This document shows positions 353 to 22,293 of a stretch of 64,000 nucleotides of DNA, piece after piece (the stretch's first letter is position 1; every line of letters starts with the position of its first letter). The notes below the pieces were generated by a model. The model was not told the DNA's origin. It saw only the letters and a list, made by a program, of their open reading frames with translations, and ran no database searches. The position numbers were made by a program, and so were the translations under genes. Source of the DNA: Microbulbifer elongatus (lineage in GTDB: Bacteria > Pseudomonadota > Gammaproteobacteria > Pseudomonadales > Cellvibrionaceae); assembly GCF_021165935.1 (NCBI RefSeq), contig NZ_CP088953.1, forward strand, positions 3,822,501 to 3,886,500, written 5' to 3'.

Positions 353-1543
353 TCAGCGCAGGTTCACCGCAGCCTGAAGCACTTCATCCTGCACTTTGAT
401 GGTCTGCGTATTCGCCTGATAATTGCGCTGAGCGACAATCAGGTCTACCAGTTCGCGGGTAAGATCCACATTGGAAGTTTCCACAGCGCCAGATTCCAGG
501 GTACCAAACTGGCCAACACCAGCCAGACCCAGCAGTGGTTGCCCGGAACTACCGGTTTCTACCCATACATTATCGCCATTGGGGGAAAGGCCTTCTGGAT
601 TACGAAAATTTGCCAAGGTAATTACCCCGAGCACCTGACTTTTCTCATTGGCGTAATTGCCCCGCAGGGTTCCATCATCGTCAAATGTTATCCCGACCAA
701 CGCACCTGCAGCATAGCCATTCTGATCGAGGGAATTCAGGGCGAAGTCATTGCCGAATTGAGTGGATCCATCAAAACGGATATCGAAATCCAGGACATCG
801 GCGCCGCCACCTGGTGCGAAACTATAGGTAGGAAACGTGCTTCCCGGTTCATTCAAACTGCCATTGTTGTCAAACACCAGTTGACCAACATTGGCAGAGT
901 CGGCGTTGCCATCCACTGCCACACGGACTTCCCAGACGTTATCTGCGGTCTTGGTGAAATAGGTCGTCATAGTGTGCTGAATTCCAAGTGAATCGTACAC
1001 AGTGCCGGTGTTGGCATAGGAATAGGTGCCGCTATCGGTGGTATCGAACGGAAAAGCCGTGCGGTCGACAGTATCGACTGTGGCGTCCAGATTCATAGAA
1101 ATATCCACACCAGAGGTCGGCGTTGCGTTCATGGCGTCGGCGGGAACCCGGAGCTCCACTGGCTGGCCACCGGTGCCCACTCCAGCAGGAAAGCCGGTCA
1201 AGCGCGCTCCCTGCGCATTCTGCAGATAACCATCTGCGGTGAGAGTAAGTTGTCCATTACGGGAGTAAACTACTTCACCGCCCTGGGTAAAGCGAAAGAA
1301 CCCGTTACCATTGATCCCGAGATCCAGGCTTCGCCCAGTGGCTTCCAATGTACCATTGGAAAAGTCCTGTAAGACTGCGGCCACACGGTTGCCCTGGCCA
1401 GCCAGTGCACCGGTGTATACATCAGCAAACTGAACACTGGACCCTTTAAACCCTACCGTCTGGGAGTTGGCAATATTGTTACCGACAACATCGAGATTGA
1501 CCGCTGCGGAGTTGAGTCCGCTCAATGCCTGTGAAAAACCCAT
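353..1543 (-). CDS. flgE: FlgE, flagellar hook protein
   Basis: The 396-residue hook subunit starts MGFSQALSGLNSAAVNLDVV and has the NNIANSQTVGFKGS rod/hook signature at about residues 22-36. It ends with the C-terminal axial motif (SNVDLTRELVDLIVAQRNYQ, then TIKVQDEVLQAAVNLR). The length is close to E. coli FlgE (about 400). The product polymerises into the hook between rod and filament after export by the FlhA/FlhB machinery encoded later in this window. It lies 42 bases downstream of flgD in the same operon. The central hook domains are Gly/Asp-rich, as usual. Confidence 0.97.
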   Translation of the reverse strand: MGFSQALSGLNSAAVNLDVVGNNIANSQTVGFKGSSVQFADVYTGALAGQGNRVAAVLQDFSNGTLEATGRSLDLGINGNGFFRFTQGGEVVYSRNGQLTLTADGYLQNAQGARLTGFPAGVGTGGQPVELRVPADAMNATPTSGVDISMNLDATVDTVDRTAFPFDTTDSGTYSYANTGTVYDSLGIQHTMTTYFTKTADNVWEVRVAVDGNADSANVGQLVFDNNGSLNEPGSTFPTYSFAPGGGADVLDFDIRFDGSTQFGNDFALNSLDQNGYAAGALVGITFDDDGTLRGNYANEKSQVLGVITLANFRNPEGLSPNGDNVWVETGSSGQPLLGLAGVGQFGTLESGAVETSNVDLTRELVDLIVAQRNYQANTQTIKVQDEVLQAAVNLR

Positions 1544-1585
1544 AATCAGTACCTGTTATTCTAAAAGTTGATGACGCGTTACCGC

Positions 1586-2260
1586 TCAGAGAATCTGGCG
1601 AATCTCATCTAGACTCACCGGGTCGGTGATACCACCGAGATCCAGTTTCGGAGCGCCCTGAGCGTCGAGGTTGACACCACTCACCAGGGCGTAATTCAAA
1701 GCACGGGCGACAAGAGATTCGCCATTGGCAGTCGCGCTGGCGGATACATGATAGGAACCTGCTGGTGCCGCTGTTCCCTCGTTGGTCATACCATCCCAGG
1801 TGAATGATTCCACCCCGGCCTCAAGCGAGAAAGGTTCGAAGGTACGTACCACTTCACCAGCCGCATTGCGAATGATGATATGCACTTCATCTGCCGCACT
1901 AGGGATTTCGATACCAAAAGGCGTGGTTGCCCCCTCCTCACCCACCAGCACACGATCACCTTCCACCAGTACGCCCTTGCCGATCATATCCGCGGCCTGC
2001 AACATCTGACTGGTATCCAACTGCCCATTAATACCCGCCAGGGTCTCGTTGAGACTTTCGATACCACTGACCGTGTTGATCTGGGCCAACTGGGATGTCA
2101 TCTCGGCATTCTCCATCGGATTCATTGGATCCTGATTCTGGAGTTGCGCCACAAGTAACGTCATAAAACTAGACTGCATGTCCGCAGCCCCACTACTGGA
2201 ACCAGCTGTCGCGTTCAATGCACTACGCACACCGCTATCAATAACATTTTCCACGGCCAT
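1586..2260 (-). CDS. flgD: FlgD, hook cap / hook assembly scaffold protein
   Basis: The 224-residue protein has the conserved N-terminal FlgD segment FMTLLVAQLQNQDPMNPMEN (about residues 32-51), followed by EMTSQLAQINTVSGIE. The rest is the beta-rich FlgD Ig/Tudor-like region (TTPFGIEIP, FTWDGMTNEGTAAPAGSY). FlgD caps the growing hook and is discarded when the hook is complete. The ATG at 2260 overlaps the flgC stop by one base, which implies translational coupling. Confidence 0.96.
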   Translation of the reverse strand: MAVENVIDSGVRSALNATAGSSSGAADMQSSFMTLLVAQLQNQDPMNPMENAEMTSQLAQINTVSGIESLNETLAGINGQLDTSQMLQAADMIGKGVLVEGDRVLVGEEGATTPFGIEIPSAADEVHIIIRNAAGEVVRTFEPFSLEAGVESFTWDGMTNEGTAAPAGSYHVSASATANGESLVARALNYALVSGVNLDAQGAPKLDLGGITDPVSLDEIRQIL

Positions 2261-2661
2261 TAATTTTCTCCCAACGTGAGCGTTTTCAGCATCAGCTGCT
2301 TGCTGGTGTTCATCACTTCCACATTCGCCTGATAGGAGCGAGACGCGGCAATCATGTCGACCATTTCATTGACCGGCTCCACATTCGGCAAACTGACGTA
2401 ACCTGCCTCATCAGCCAGGGGGTGGTCCGGGCGATACTCCTGACGCAGCGGCGCTGAGTCTTCTACCAACCCGCGCACACGCACCCCACCAATGCCACCA
2501 TTCTCTTGCTGACGCGCGGCAAAAATCAGGTGCTTTGCGCGGTAAGCTTCTCCATTTGGCCCTGCAACGCTGTCCGCATTGGCAAGATTACTCGCAGTCA
2601 CATTCATGCGCTGCCCTTGCGCCGCCATCGCGGATCCTGATATCTCAAAAATAGAAAACAT
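2260..2661 (-). CDS. flgC: FlgC, flagellar proximal rod protein
   Basis: The start was set at the ATG at 2661 (MFSIFEISGSAMAAQGQRM), because an AAGGAG ribosome site lies about ten bases upstream and the family begins there; an in-frame start 48 bases further upstream would add a non-homologous tail. The resulting 133 residues match the usual FlgC length. Visible motifs are NVTASNLANADSVAGPNGEAYRAK near the N-terminus and EMVDMIAASRSYQANVEVMN at the C-terminus. It forms the rod with FlgB, FlgF and FlgG. Confidence 0.96.
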   Translation of the reverse strand: MFSIFEISGSAMAAQGQRMNVTASNLANADSVAGPNGEAYRAKHLIFAARQQENGGIGGVRVRGLVEDSAPLRQEYRPDHPLADEAGYVSLPNVEPVNEMVDMIAASRSYQANVEVMNTSKQLMLKTLTLGEN

Positions 2662-2726
2662 CGAAACGCTACACTCCTTCGAATTTATTAGGTATTGCTC
2701 TGATCGCACTGATCATCTGGTTTCAT

Positions 2727-3161
2727 CTATTCCGGTTGCATTGCCGACTTGAGCCCACGAATACGACTATTGAGCAGTGTGAGGGCAGCCTGATAACGCA
2801 CCGCATTGTCGGTAAACCGACTGCGCTCCTGATCCATACTCACCGTATTTCCATCCAGACTCGGCTGATCCGGCACCCGGTAAAGCATACTGGGCCCGCT
2901 GTTAATGCCCCCTTGTGTCGCGATGTGATTCGATGAAGTCATCGTCAGTGCCAGAGTATTACCCTCACGACTGATATTCCGACCCCCGATCTCCGCGCCA
3001 GCCGTGGCCTGAGCCAATGCACGGGAGAAGTTGAAATCTCGCGCCTTGTAATTCGGGGTGTCCGCATTGGCAATATTGTTAGCCAACACCTGTTGCCGCC
3101 GGTCGCGCAGACTTAGCGCTTCGCTGTCGAATTTGAGCGCTGCGGAAAGCCGATCAATCAT
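2727..3161 (-). CDS. flgB: FlgB, flagellar proximal rod protein
   Basis: The 144-residue protein has the FlgB signature LANNIANADTPNYKARDFNF at about residues 26-45 and a C-terminal axial helix (VRYQAALTLLNSRIRGLKSAM). It is the first gene of the flgBCDEF operon and is divergent from flgA, which is the E. coli arrangement. The ATG at 3161 is preceded by GGGAG seven bases upstream. The promoter must lie in the 3162-3338 interval, where a palindrome with AAATAG half-sites is visible. Confidence 0.96.
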   Translation of the reverse strand: MIDRLSAALKFDSEALSLRDRRQQVLANNIANADTPNYKARDFNFSRALAQATAGAEIGGRNISREGNTLALTMTSSNHIATQGGINSGPSMLYRVPDQPSLDGNTVSMDQERSRFTDNAVRYQAALTLLNSRIRGLKSAMQPE

Positions 3162-4107: not shown

Positions 4108-4134
4108 TCAAGTCGGACCTGCAAGCGCCGATAT
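4108..4134 (+). promoter_or_regulatory. Sigma-28 (FliA) promoter of flgMN
   Basis: A -35 TCAAGTCG (4108-4115), 11 bases, then -10 GCCGATAT (4127-4134) fits the FliA consensus TAAAGTTT-N11-GCCGATAA, with seven of eight -10 positions matching. It lies about 30 bases before the flgM start. A class 3 promoter for flgM is known in enterics, where it supplies anti-sigma for feedback. Confidence 0.8.
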
Positions 4135-4163: not shown

Positions 4164-4448
4164 GTGAAAATCCAGAACATTACCCAACTGACGCCCGCCA
4201 ACACTCCTCGCGAGAAGCCGGCAAGCGCACCGGTGGAGTCTGCAGCGAACCCCGGCGCCGCCGGGACACTCAAGAACGTTAGTCAGCTACACCAACCAGC
4301 TGCAGATAGTAGCCAGGATATTGACACACTGCGGGTGGAAGAGCTTCGTGAAGCGATCGCGTCGGGTACGTTTGAAATTCGCGTAGAACGAATCGCCGAA
4401 GGTTTGATCGCCAGTCTGCGGGAGCAGGAAGGCTTGGAAGAGCCGTGA
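4164..4448 (+). CDS. flgM: FlgM, anti-sigma-28 factor
   Basis: The 94-residue protein has the FlgM layout: a disordered Pro/Ala-rich N-terminal half (residues 1-45) and a helical C-terminal FliA-binding half (DTLRVEELREAIASGTFEIRVERIAEGLIAS). It would hold FliA (6882-7580) inactive until hook completion allows FlgM export. The start is GTG at 4164 with GGAG eight bases upstream. The TGA stop overlaps the flgN GTG start. A sigma-28 promoter precedes it, so it is probably under FliA feedback. Confidence 0.95.
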   Translation: MKIQNITQLTPANTPREKPASAPVESAANPGAAGTLKNVSQLHQPAADSSQDIDTLRVEELREAIASGTFEIRVERIAEGLIASLREQEGLEEP

Positions 4449-4900: not shown

Positions 4901-4927
4901 TAGAGAGAATATTCACCCTGCCGATTC
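4901..4927 (+). promoter_or_regulatory. Candidate sigma-28 promoter of the EAL-HDOD gene
   Basis: The -35 is TAGAGAGA (4901-4908), followed by an 11-base spacer and -10 GCCGATTC (4920-4927). The -10 keeps six of eight consensus bases; the -35 is weaker. It begins seven bases after the flgN stop and 80 bases before the next start. Confidence 0.55.
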
Positions 4928-4980: not shown

Positions 4981-6225
4981 GTGACATCACTTGCTCAAGC
5001 AATCAGTGACGACACTCTGGATGTTTTACTGGCCTGCCGGCCAGTATTCACCCGCAACCACGATGTCGCTGCATTTGAATTACTACTACAGAGCGAAACA
5101 GCCCGAAAAGGTGCCACTCTCAGAGAGATTGAGGCCAGTAGCCCGATCATAATGGGTAACTACAATCAAGTTTATCAACGGGGCCAAACAAAGAGCGTAC
5201 CTGGCTTTCTGAAAGTAACAGACGACGTCATTTTTGCACCCGGCTTGCCGACATTGTCTCAACAGCACTACATACTGGAAGTGGCCGAGGATGTGCTTCT
5301 GACTTCCGAGCGGGTAGAGCGCCTTAAGGAAATGGCCAAACGAGGCTACCGCATAGCATTATCCAGCTATGACCCGGATGACGTAGAGCTGGACGCTCTG
5401 CTGGATGTAGTCCATATCGTCAAGCTGGATACAGATCAAATGAGCGATACACAACTGCGTACCGCTATAACGAAGCTCCGCACTCATGGAGTAGAAACGC
5501 TTGCGGACAATCTGAAAACCAGAGAACGCTTCGCTACCTGTGTAAAACTGGGCTTCACTTACTACCAGGGCGACTTTCTCAGTGTTCCTTCTCCGGTAAA
5601 AGGTAAAAAGATAAGTGGCAACAAAGCACTACTGCTTGAGCTTCTGAATGAACTGCAAAACCCAACCGCTTCTCCAGTGCGACTGGAAGAAATCGCATTG
5701 CAGGATGCCAAACTCACGTACCGCATTCTTAAACTGGTTAATTCTGCGGCGGTCAGTTTGCACCGGGAAGTCCGGTCGATCTCTCAAGCAATCGGTTTGC
5801 TGGGAATGAAAGAAATTCAGCGCTGGGCAAGCCTGTTCCTGATCGAAGGCGAGCAAGGTAAACCTGAAGAACTGACTCGCAAGATGCTGATTCGTGGACG
5901 CATGTGTGAAGTGCTCGCCGAAATATGTGGCAATGGGAACGCTAGTGACAACTTTATTGTCGGTCTGCTTTCACTCCTGGACGCGATGATGGACATTGCC
6001 ATGGAAGAGCTGATGCAGCAAGTACCACTCAGCCAAGGTGTGAAAGATGCTTTACTACACCGAAACGGTAATTTGGGGAATATTTTGAATGAAGTCGAGC
6101 TTTACGAACAAGGCCGATTCTCAGAACTTTCGCTAATAGCAAGCCAGCCGATCTATGAAACCGCGTATCGCCATAGTGTTTCCTGGGCGAGACAGGCTCA
6201 ACAAGCCCTGAACGGGGACCTTTAA
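4981..6225 (+). CDS. Degenerate EAL plus HDOD domain signalling protein
   Basis: The 414-residue cytosolic protein has an N-terminal EAL-like domain (about 10-205) and a C-terminal HDOD domain (about 215-410, LLLELLNELQNPTASPVRLEEIALQDAKLTYRILKLVNSA). The EAL motif is replaced by FELLLQ in RPVFTRNHDVAAFELLLQ, and the acidic metal ligands of active phosphodiesterases are not evident, so it is probably not a c-di-GMP hydrolase. YuxH-like EAL-HDOD proteins act as signalling adaptors. It starts at GTG 4981 with AGGAG upstream. The candidate FliA promoter before it suggests a role tied to motility. The specific partner is unknown. Confidence 0.82.
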   Translation: MTSLAQAISDDTLDVLLACRPVFTRNHDVAAFELLLQSETARKGATLREIEASSPIIMGNYNQVYQRGQTKSVPGFLKVTDDVIFAPGLPTLSQQHYILEVAEDVLLTSERVERLKEMAKRGYRIALSSYDPDDVELDALLDVVHIVKLDTDQMSDTQLRTAITKLRTHGVETLADNLKTRERFATCVKLGFTYYQGDFLSVPSPVKGKKISGNKALLLELLNELQNPTASPVRLEEIALQDAKLTYRILKLVNSAAVSLHREVRSISQAIGLLGMKEIQRWASLFLIEGEQGKPEELTRKMLIRGRMCEVLAEICGNGNASDNFIVGLLSLLDAMMDIAMEELMQQVPLSQGVKDALLHRNGNLGNILNEVELYEQGRFSELSLIASQPIYETAYRHSVSWARQAQQALNGDL

Positions 6226-6280
6226 GCGGGTACATAATGCAAAGCGCTTAATAAATTACGCTCTCACAGGGGCACATCAG

Positions 6281-6313
6281 GCCCGACGAAGGTCCCACTT
6301 CGCCGGGCTTTTC
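6281..6313 (+). terminator. Rho-independent terminator after the EAL-HDOD gene
   Basis: GCCCGACGAAG and CTTCGCCGGGC form an 11-base stem with one mismatch around a six-base loop, followed by TTTTC. It closes the transcription unit that ends at 6225. Confidence 0.8.
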
Positions 6314-6320
6314 TATACTC

Positions 6321-6347
6321 TAAAGCTTTTCCAAGCATGGCCGATGA
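6321..6347 (+). promoter_or_regulatory. Strong sigma-28 promoter of the TonB-domain gene
   Basis: The -35 TAAAGCTT (6321-6328), 11 bases, and -10 GCCGATGA (6340-6347) match the FliA consensus at seven of eight positions in each element. It starts eight bases after the upstream terminator and about 80 bases before ATG 6427, so the downstream gene has its own class 3 promoter. Confidence 0.82.
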
Positions 6348-6426
6348 TACTCATAGCGGGAGCAACTACCCTCCTGTATCGCAAACTCACAGTCAGTACC
6401 GAAACGCTAACTACCGGAAAACAGCC

Positions 6427-6813
6427 ATGAAAGCTTTACATTTTGCATTGGCTCTGCCACTACTGGCAGCGAGCCTGTCTGTAGACGCCGCACCTCGCCT
6501 GAGTGGCGTCAAACAACAAGGCGATGTCGAGAGTTATTCCGATGCTCTGAACCGCCACACCGTCAAAAATATTCGATACCCATCTCGCGCTCAACAACGC
6601 GGTTGGGAGGGTGAAGTTGTTCTTAAGATCGTCGTCGATAAAAAAGGTGAGGTACAGGATATTCAGGTTATCGAAGAGTCCAGTTATTCCAGCCTGAACC
6701 GGGAAGCACTTCGCAGCGTCGAGCGCGCAAATCCATATCCTCAGATACCATCACATCTCGGTGTGGAAACGTTTAGTTTTACTGTACCGATCCGTTTCTC
6801 TCTTGGCAGTTGA
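6427..6813 (+). CDS. Small periplasmic TonB C-terminal domain protein
   Basis: The start was set at ATG 6427, which begins a signal peptide (MKALHFALALPLLAASLSVDA). An in-frame start at 6337 would lie inside the -35/-10 of the promoter. The 128-residue product is almost entirely a TonB C-terminal domain: IRYPSRAQQRGWEGEVVLKI, VVDKKGEVQDIQVIEESSYSSLNREAL, then NPYPQIP. There is no Pro-rich spacer and no ExbB/D partner nearby, so it is unlikely to be a classical energy transducer. The strong FliA promoter and the position between flagellar genes suggest a motility or envelope role, as with the TonB-like TonB3 needed for twitching in Pseudomonas. The function is otherwise unknown. Confidence 0.8.
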   Translation: MKALHFALALPLLAASLSVDAAPRLSGVKQQGDVESYSDALNRHTVKNIRYPSRAQQRGWEGEVVLKIVVDKKGEVQDIQVIEESSYSSLNREALRSVERANPYPQIPSHLGVETFSFTVPIRFSLGS

Positions 6814-6881: not shown

Positions 6882-7580
6882 TTACTCAACGAGTCGCGCT
6901 CGCAGACGCTTGATTGCCTGGCTGTGCAACTGGCATACCCTTGACTCAGTCACTCCGAGAACAGCCCCTATTTCCTTCAGGTTTAGATCTTCTTGATAGT
7001 ACAGTGCCATCAGCAATTTTTCTCGCTCAGGGAGCTTCTCAATCGCGTTGAGTAGGTCACGTTTACGCTCGCCTTCCAACAGTGCGGCGAAGGGTGTTGC
7101 TGGGGAGCCCGCACCCGCCTCTGGCTCTCCGCTTTCAGCAACTATCTCTTCGAAGGGTAAAAGGTGCCCGCAATTTGTGTCCTGTAAGAGCTGATGGTAC
7201 TCATCGGCGGACATACCCATTGCCGAGGATATTTCCCGTTCATCCGCAGCGCGGCCAAGGCGCTGTTCAAGCTTCTGGAGCTGCTGATCAAGCAGTCGTG
7301 CGTTGCGGCGGACACTGCGAGGAAGCCAATCGCGGGTACGCAGCTCATCAATCATTGCGCCGCGCACACGCTGGTTAGCGAAAGTAGAAAAGCTGGCTCC
7401 GGCATTGGGATCAAACCGCTGCAAGGCGTCGAGCAACCCAACCATACCAGCCTGAATCAAGTCATCCAGGTCAACTCCAGCGGGCAGTTTCACCTGGAGT
7501 GACAAAGCCTGACGCCTCACTGCAGGAAGATGCTCTTCCAGTAGCGCATCACGATTGATCGTTCCCTGTGCTGTATACAT
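6882..7580 (-). CDS. fliA: FliA, flagellar sigma-28 factor
   Basis: The 232-residue sigma factor has region 2 (VDLDDLIQAGMVGLLDALQRFDP, FSTFANQRVRGAMIDELR, DWLPRSVRR), region 3, and region 4 (KLPEREKLLMALYYQEDLNLKEIGAVLGVTESRVCQLHSQA). The start was set at ATG 7580 (MYTAQG), which has GGGAG seven bases upstream and matches the family; a longer frame begins 84 bases earlier. It lies downstream of flhA on the same strand, where enterics carry flhE. It would transcribe the sigma-28 sites found in this window and is opposed by FlgM. Confidence 0.97.
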   Translation of the reverse strand: MYTAQGTINRDALLEEHLPAVRRQALSLQVKLPAGVDLDDLIQAGMVGLLDALQRFDPNAGASFSTFANQRVRGAMIDELRTRDWLPRSVRRNARLLDQQLQKLEQRLGRAADEREISSAMGMSADEYHQLLQDTNCGHLLPFEEIVAESGEPEAGAGSPATPFAALLEGERKRDLLNAIEKLPEREKLLMALYYQEDLNLKEIGAVLGVTESRVCQLHSQAIKRLRARLVE

Positions 7581-15234: not shown

Positions 15235-15261
15235 TCATCGGCCGCTGCTCACAGGGCTTTA
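15235..15261 (-). promoter_or_regulatory. Sigma-28 promoter upstream of cheB
   Basis: Read on the minus strand, the -35 TAAAGCCC (15254-15261), 11 bases and -10 GCCGATGA (15235-15242) match the FliA consensus closely, with the TAAA box intact and seven of eight -10 bases. It lies about 110 bases before the cheB start and would drive cheB-MCP-cheY-cheZ separately from the motA promoter. Confidence 0.8.
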
Positions 15262-22266: not shown

Positions 22267-22293
22267 CTATCGGCATCTCTACGCCAATCTTGA
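22267..22293 (-). promoter_or_regulatory. Sigma-28 promoter of the motA-cheW operon
   Basis: On the minus strand the -35 TCAAGATT (22286-22293), 11 bases and -10 GCCGATAG (22267-22274) match the FliA consensus. It lies 37 bases before the motA start, the position of the class 3 mocha promoter in E. coli. The rest of the 22294-22496 gap shows nothing I can identify. Confidence 0.82.

Follow-up and report, generated by a model that had tools for sequence, protein, structure and literature searches.

A stand-alone TonB-domain gene with a conserved sigma-28 type promoter in the flagellar cluster of Microbulbifer

The TonB domain is familiar as the part through which a proton-driven machine delivers its output, and class 3 flagellar genes follow an order in which the hook is completed, FlgM is exported, and FliA (sigma-28) is then active. 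We describe here a TonB-like gene located beside fliA in a 64,000-nucleotide stretch of the Microbulbifer elongatus genome (the window), in which the TonB domain appears to have been cut free of that machine and placed under an apparent late flagellar sigma promoter that is held exactly amid changing surroundings. The C-terminal domain of its product resembles that of energy-transducing TonB (PF03544 / TIGR01352) by sequence and predicted fold, but the protein has a putative signal peptide rather than an evident membrane anchor and has no proline-rich spacer, and the gene has no linked ExbD and is preceded by a FliA-type promoter. A second relative, the Chalcone_3-linker-TonB_C protein of Microbulbifer, has a homologous signal peptide and TonB domain, but neither the chalcone-isomerase-like domain nor the linker is present in the flagellar form, which is found only in flagellated genomes of the genus. 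The gene shares its promoter class, its cluster, and the presence of FlhC with the FliA class 3 genes of FlhDC systems (fliC, fliD, flgM, motAB, and che). Its product is small, predicted to be secreted, and tied to flagellation in the manner of the periplasmic motor accessories of the MotY and FlgT type, although no domain shared with these was found; to our knowledge such a protein is not among the known flagellar or chemotaxis components.

The original prediction for this DNA had described a near-consensus sigma-28 promoter just after a terminator, followed by a 128-residue protein with little beyond a TonB domain and no proline-rich spacer, positioned among flagellar genes, and this arrangement is upheld (Table 1). 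Taking the E. coli FliA consensus to be TAAA-N15-GCCGATAA, the promoter departs from the E. coli-type sequence at one of 12 positions. The preceding hairpin has a tail (UUUUCUAU) whose first two U residues are base-paired in the fold; a terminator pattern scan returned no hit, and a comparable hairpin was recognized by eye in the upstream sequence of genome G024. Upstream of the TonB-like gene lie flgA, flgM, flgN, and a gene for an EAL-HDOD protein, and downstream, on the opposite strand, lies fliA.

The promoter and the gene are conserved together. In a sample of 48 Microbulbifer genomes, in which FliA was called above its curated cut-off and homologues of the TonB-like protein at E <= 1e-20, FliA is present in eight genomes, referred to here as flagellated. 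A full-length stand-alone homologue is found in exactly these eight, within ~2 kb of fliA, and at the same threshold it is absent from the other 40. These genomes contain nine copies, since G020 has a tandem pair (L042) in which each gene has its own FliA site; two TonB-like proteins of strain SA54 are also present in the database (P0008 and P0014). The promoter precedes all nine copies with 0–1 of 12 mismatches, 66–106 nt before the start, so that on the sequence side the proposed membership of FliA class 3 is strongly supported, a lack of motif conservation in orthologous loci having been named beforehand as the contrary outcome. The TAAA, the next G, and GCCGAT are identical in all nine promoters (11 invariant motif columns), whereas their surroundings are near random, with identities of 0.35 in the remainder of the spacer, 0.31 in the 20 bases before, and 0.38 in the 20 bases after; the final two positions of the -10 element also vary (0.49). 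The protein itself is under purifying selection, with dN/dS values of 0.03–0.30 in eight pairs (pN/pS where synonymous sites are saturated). Because the motif is invariant amid near-random flanks and the protein is under purifying selection, we read the conserved columns as the probable footprint of a used sigma-28 promoter.

A strict form of the motif, TAAAG-N14-GCCGAT, occurs 11 times on both strands of the 4.2 Mb genome (six times in a reversed control), and the chance of finding it in a given 150-bp stretch is ~2e-4; it is observed at all nine orthologous copies. The mean number of strict sites per genome is 11.1 in the eight flagellated genomes versus 6.05 in the other 40 (one-sided Mann-Whitney p 7e-5, with relatedness ignored), the flagellated genomes ranging from 8 to 20 and single flagella-less genomes reaching 12. 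We infer dependence on FliA in vivo; it is highly likely that FliA drives the TonB-like gene, and from its sequence context the gene is very probably a genuine class 3 member of the FlhDC-FliA hierarchy. FlhC is present in all eight flagellated genomes, and FliA, FlgM, and FlhC are all encoded in the window genome, which makes the usual order of FlhDC, FliA, and class 3 genes plausible.

The conservation data also bear on whether the gene is a passenger, a duplicated fragment that took over a FliA promoter and has been retained with no role tied to the flagellum. Its restriction to the genus (as far as names go), its linkage to the cluster, and the tandem duplicate in G020 are all consistent with such a history, but the strong purifying selection and the exact preservation of the promoter while synonymous sites reach saturation argue otherwise, and we regard a passenger gene as very unlikely.

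FliA-type sites with one or two mismatches are found before other flagellar genes, including three in the window (Table 1) and those before fliD and fliC (named by eye), which lie to the left of the window. The flgM site recurs in relatives, flgM being recognized from its protein product in G066 and HZ11 and from its position in G017 and M. harenosus; the cheB site recurs in G059 and G020, and the motA site in G017. With up to two mismatches allowed, the window contains seven sites in its first 23 kb, of which four stand before genes (flgM, the TonB-like gene, cheB, and motA) and three do not, and the whole genome contains 356, barely above the 290 of the reversed control. Close to flhC (3798392–3798907) there is a FliA-like site with two mismatches, GTCGATAT, at G000:C1:3798237-3798263 on the minus strand.

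Table 1. Coordinates of the promoter, genes, and other sites within the window
Feature	Coordinates	Strand	Description
FliA (sigma-28) type promoter of TonB-like gene	6321..6347	+	TAAA-N15-GCCGATGA (= TAAAG-N14-GCCGATGA); 79 nt before ATG, directly after hairpin
TonB-like gene	6427..6813	+	128-residue protein; putative signal peptide ~1-21 (by eye), short linker, TonB_C 48-126
Terminator-like hairpin with U-rich tail	6279..6310	+	between EAL-HDOD gene and promoter; -19.6 kcal/mol, z -4.3
fliA	6882..7580	-	convergent with TonB-like gene; NF005413, 301 bits; start at conserved MYTAQG
flgM (anti-sigma-28)	4164..4448	+	domain/family matches
FliA-type site before flgM	4108..4134	+	TCAAG-N14-GCCGATAT; 2 mismatches
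EAL-HDOD gene	4981..6225	+	between flgN and TonB-like gene; HDOD 9.9e-17, partial EAL 8.4e-8
FliA-type site before cheB (cheB named by eye)	15235..15261	-	TAAAG-N14-GCCGATGA; 1 mismatch
FliA-type site before motA (motA named by eye)	22267..22293	-	TCAAG-N14-GCCGATAG; 2 mismatches

The distribution of the gene on a tree of the genus suggests an association with flagella that has been repeated. A marker tree built from Chalcone_3-TonB sequences covers 37 of the 48 genomes, 11 being left out, and the eight flagellated genomes are scattered on it, with seven label changes (a value as low was obtained in 245 of 500 shuffles), at least four of which are forced by well-supported branches. As judged from these sequences, the TonB-like gene tracks flagella through several losses or gains. 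An apparent stand-alone copy in the flagella-less G062 was rejected, as the short frame corresponds to the tail of a Chalcone_3-TonB gene that is broken across two frames (L109).

A Pfam domain search of the gene product identifies TonB_C with an E value of 2.6e-19 and nothing besides TonB_C/TonB_2, and the assignment agrees in sequence (PF03544 / TIGR01352) and in predicted fold. The N-terminus, MKALHFALALPLLAASLSVDA followed by APRL, has the appearance by eye of a cleavable signal peptide in which the lipobox cysteine is absent, and a signal peptide of the cleavable type was likewise seen by eye in the other copies inspected. In the aligned copies the linker between signal peptide and domain is ~25 residues long and is not proline-rich, and residues Y51, P52, R54, and A55 are invariant. 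A longer frame starting at ATG 6337 was rejected because it overlaps the promoter; six of the eight other copies have no in-frame upstream start, and those in G059 and G005 are unrelated. The earlier statement that neither ExbB nor ExbD is encoded nearby holds for ExbD, which was not found in the window and for which the nearest of nine genome matches is ~90 kb away; ExbB was not searched for separately. Because there is no evident membrane anchor, no spacer, and no linked ExbD, the usual form of energy transduction is not expected and a role in envelope energisation seems unlikely, although a partner might act in trans.

The probable ancestry of the protein can be read from the genus genomes. 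Forty-six of the 48 genus genomes match the query at E <= 1e-20, with G011 and G019 at ~2e-19, and the matches other than the nine copies form the ends of larger frames of ~390–520 residues (224 in G062). The paralogue in the window genome (L002, minus strand, within 1492–3045) consists of Chalcone_3, a linker rich in proline, alanine, and glutamate, and TonB_C, and shares 56% identity with the flagellar protein over residues 36–126; a transposase-like gene (IS4-type by eye; L002 115–1446) adjoins it. A tree of TonB domains was built from the nine locus copies, 14 of 26 database clusters, 20 of 24 outside loci, and 37 rows of Chalcone_3-TonB. All 23 flagellar domains fall into a single clade (100/99), sister to the 37 Chalcone_3-TonB domains of the genus (96/54 for the latter as a group). 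The signal peptides were also scored against the Chalcone_3-TonB set and against 45 control signal peptides; 21 of the 23 score best against the former, the test failing for P0024 and P0027. The simplest history consistent with these sequences would be a duplication followed by loss of the middle of the protein, comprising the chalcone-isomerase-like domain and the linker.

Six residues (W60, R96, S97, N102, I107, and G112) are present at frequencies of 0.87–1.0 in the flagellar clade and differ from those usual in the paralogue, which may point to a changed contact surface. They also bear on the idea that the free domain is a TonB antagonist, competing with energised TonB or with the Chalcone_3-TonB paralogue for outer-membrane clients and so reducing nutrient uptake during swimming. 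Periplasmic TonB fragments are able to inhibit TonB-dependent uptake in E. coli, and a protein with the fold of energised TonB, the invariant Y51, P52, R54, and A55, and no evident anchor could act similarly. However, it is most closely related to the Chalcone_3-TonB protein and not to an energy-transducing TonB, and the clade-specific residues suggest a client of its own, such that we consider antagonism unlikely.

Outside Microbulbifer we find no close counterpart. At E <= 1e-8 a global protein search returned 37 proteins. The 26 ranked highest are stand-alone (E <= 9.3e-46, 118–160 residues), and the next match drops to 2.5e-24; sources are named for 12 of the 26, all Microbulbifer, and the other 14 are without a name. 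Of 145 genomes sampled across the order, 100 have FliA; 98 of these are not Microbulbifer, and these 98 have no close copy. Outside the genus the profile scores reach at most 96.8 bits, versus 237.9 and 229.8 for the two genus copies (in one search, with the same draw size as the 145-genome sample). The protein is therefore not a general part of the motor, in line with the earlier statement that it lies outside the standard flagellar parts, and because flagellated relatives have no close copy it looks like a lineage-specific addition. These results also make it improbable that the protein is a peptidoglycan-binding or motor-stabilising factor, attaching to the wall, a ring, or a stator component around the motor as MotY or FlgT do. 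Its class 3 promoter does resemble that of motA, and we count in favor of such a role that a search for MotY_N gave no match in the eight flagellated genomes, although it gave none in any control genome either; the lack of any Pfam domain besides TonB_C/TonB_2, and of a close copy among flagellated bacteria beyond the genus, speaks against it.

A separate capture of such a gene by the flagellar system in another part of the order was considered and rejected: G133, G161, and G187, from one other family, encode signal-peptide plus TonB_C proteins of 179–224 residues, and no flagellar gene was recognized by eye in these loci (~3.3 kb). Two of these proteins, in L185 (G133) and L187 (G187), are stand-alone forms (179 and 224 residues) encoded beside a lytic-transglycosylase-like gene. 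Other matches from beyond the genus sit in open frames of at least 232 residues, which were not inspected singly. No TonB-domain member of a FliA regulon was found in the literature searched, the coverage of which leaves out most subscription journals; a TonB-domain gene of Marinobacter lies in an ExbB/ExbD operon and is not flagellar, according to a passage in PMC8233155.

A possible partner is suggested by the neighbors of the gene. In G017 (M. litoralis; L074 5418–6584) and G005 (L157), a gene for a TraF_2 outer-membrane barrel lies directly downstream in the same direction, separated by 18 and 16 nt respectively (the latter measured by hand), and the FliA site nearest to it is that preceding the TonB-like gene, and the two genes probably form an operon. 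The operonic TraF_2 proteins are 69% identical to each other and 46–49% identical to the unlinked copy of G000, and the TraF_2 tree, which includes an incomplete row for G065, is poorly resolved. TraF_2 is present in all eight flagellated genomes and in five of the other 40, although this association is confounded by relatedness. Candidate FliA promoters for unlinked TraF_2 genes (TCACG-N14-GCCGATAA in G000 and G024, and TAATG-N14-GCCGATAA in G066) were rejected as FliA-type conservation, since most of the spacer is common to the flagella-less G018 and G025. The neighborhood in two genomes may lend indirect support to an outer-membrane partner, as a lead and not as proof.

Our best explanation for the whole, which we hold tentatively, is that of a class 3 gene encoding a free periplasmic TonB domain that serves as a motorless docking adaptor in flagellated cells. 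The computed support covers the promoter and its conservation, the co-occurrence with flagella, the fold, and the ancestry. Following completion of the hook and export of FlgM, FliA would transcribe the TonB-like gene alongside fliC, fliD, flgM, motA, and cheB, and the product would be exported by Sec and cleaved to give a free periplasmic TonB C-terminal domain. Its ancestor would be the Chalcone_3-linker-TonB_C protein of the Microbulbifer lineage, from which the chalcone-isomerase-like domain and linker were lost and the signal peptide and docking domain kept. Besides secretion, we infer a mode of docking in which the edge strand would pair with a short stretch of a client, either outer-membrane or periplasmic, during the flagellated state; the best candidate for this client is the TraF_2 barrel. 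The fuller proposal, that a motorless TonB domain was recruited to the late flagellar regulon as a new periplasmic adaptor docking a TraF_2-type outer-membrane barrel in motile cells only, and thereby ties flagellar assembly to outer-membrane function, is plausible but rather doubtful. An envelope component seems to be part of the motile state in flagellated Microbulbifer, and if a client exists then becoming motile would involve, in these marine bacteria, an envelope change of its own.

Several observations weigh against this adaptor model. FliA-like sites with two mismatches occur within genes as well, and a close copy is lacking from FliA-bearing genomes outside the genus. Joint loss with flagella could be due in part to linkage, because the gene sits within the flagellar cluster, although the promoter footprint is independent of linkage. 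The TraF_2 gene adjoins the TonB-like gene in only two of the eight genomes and occurs in flagella-less genomes too, and in the six remaining flagellated genomes it is located away from the TonB-like gene, with an upstream region in which no convincing FliA site was found. In addition, HZ11 is described as flagellate-free and nonmotile in PMC11678492, whereas G024, which we take as the same strain, carries fliA, flhC, the TonB-like gene, and a flagellar cluster; a flagellar cluster thus need not mean visible flagella in laboratory conditions. PMC12472934 describes M. thermotolerans and M. elongatus as motile, and the new species that it reports as motile without flagella. The TonB-like gene is small, single in most genomes, and easily deleted.

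The EAL-HDOD gene upstream has features of its own. The match of its product to the EAL profile is confined to the C-terminal half of the profile, which suggests that the EAL domain is degenerate, and a weak FliA-like site with three mismatches is present at 4901–4927.
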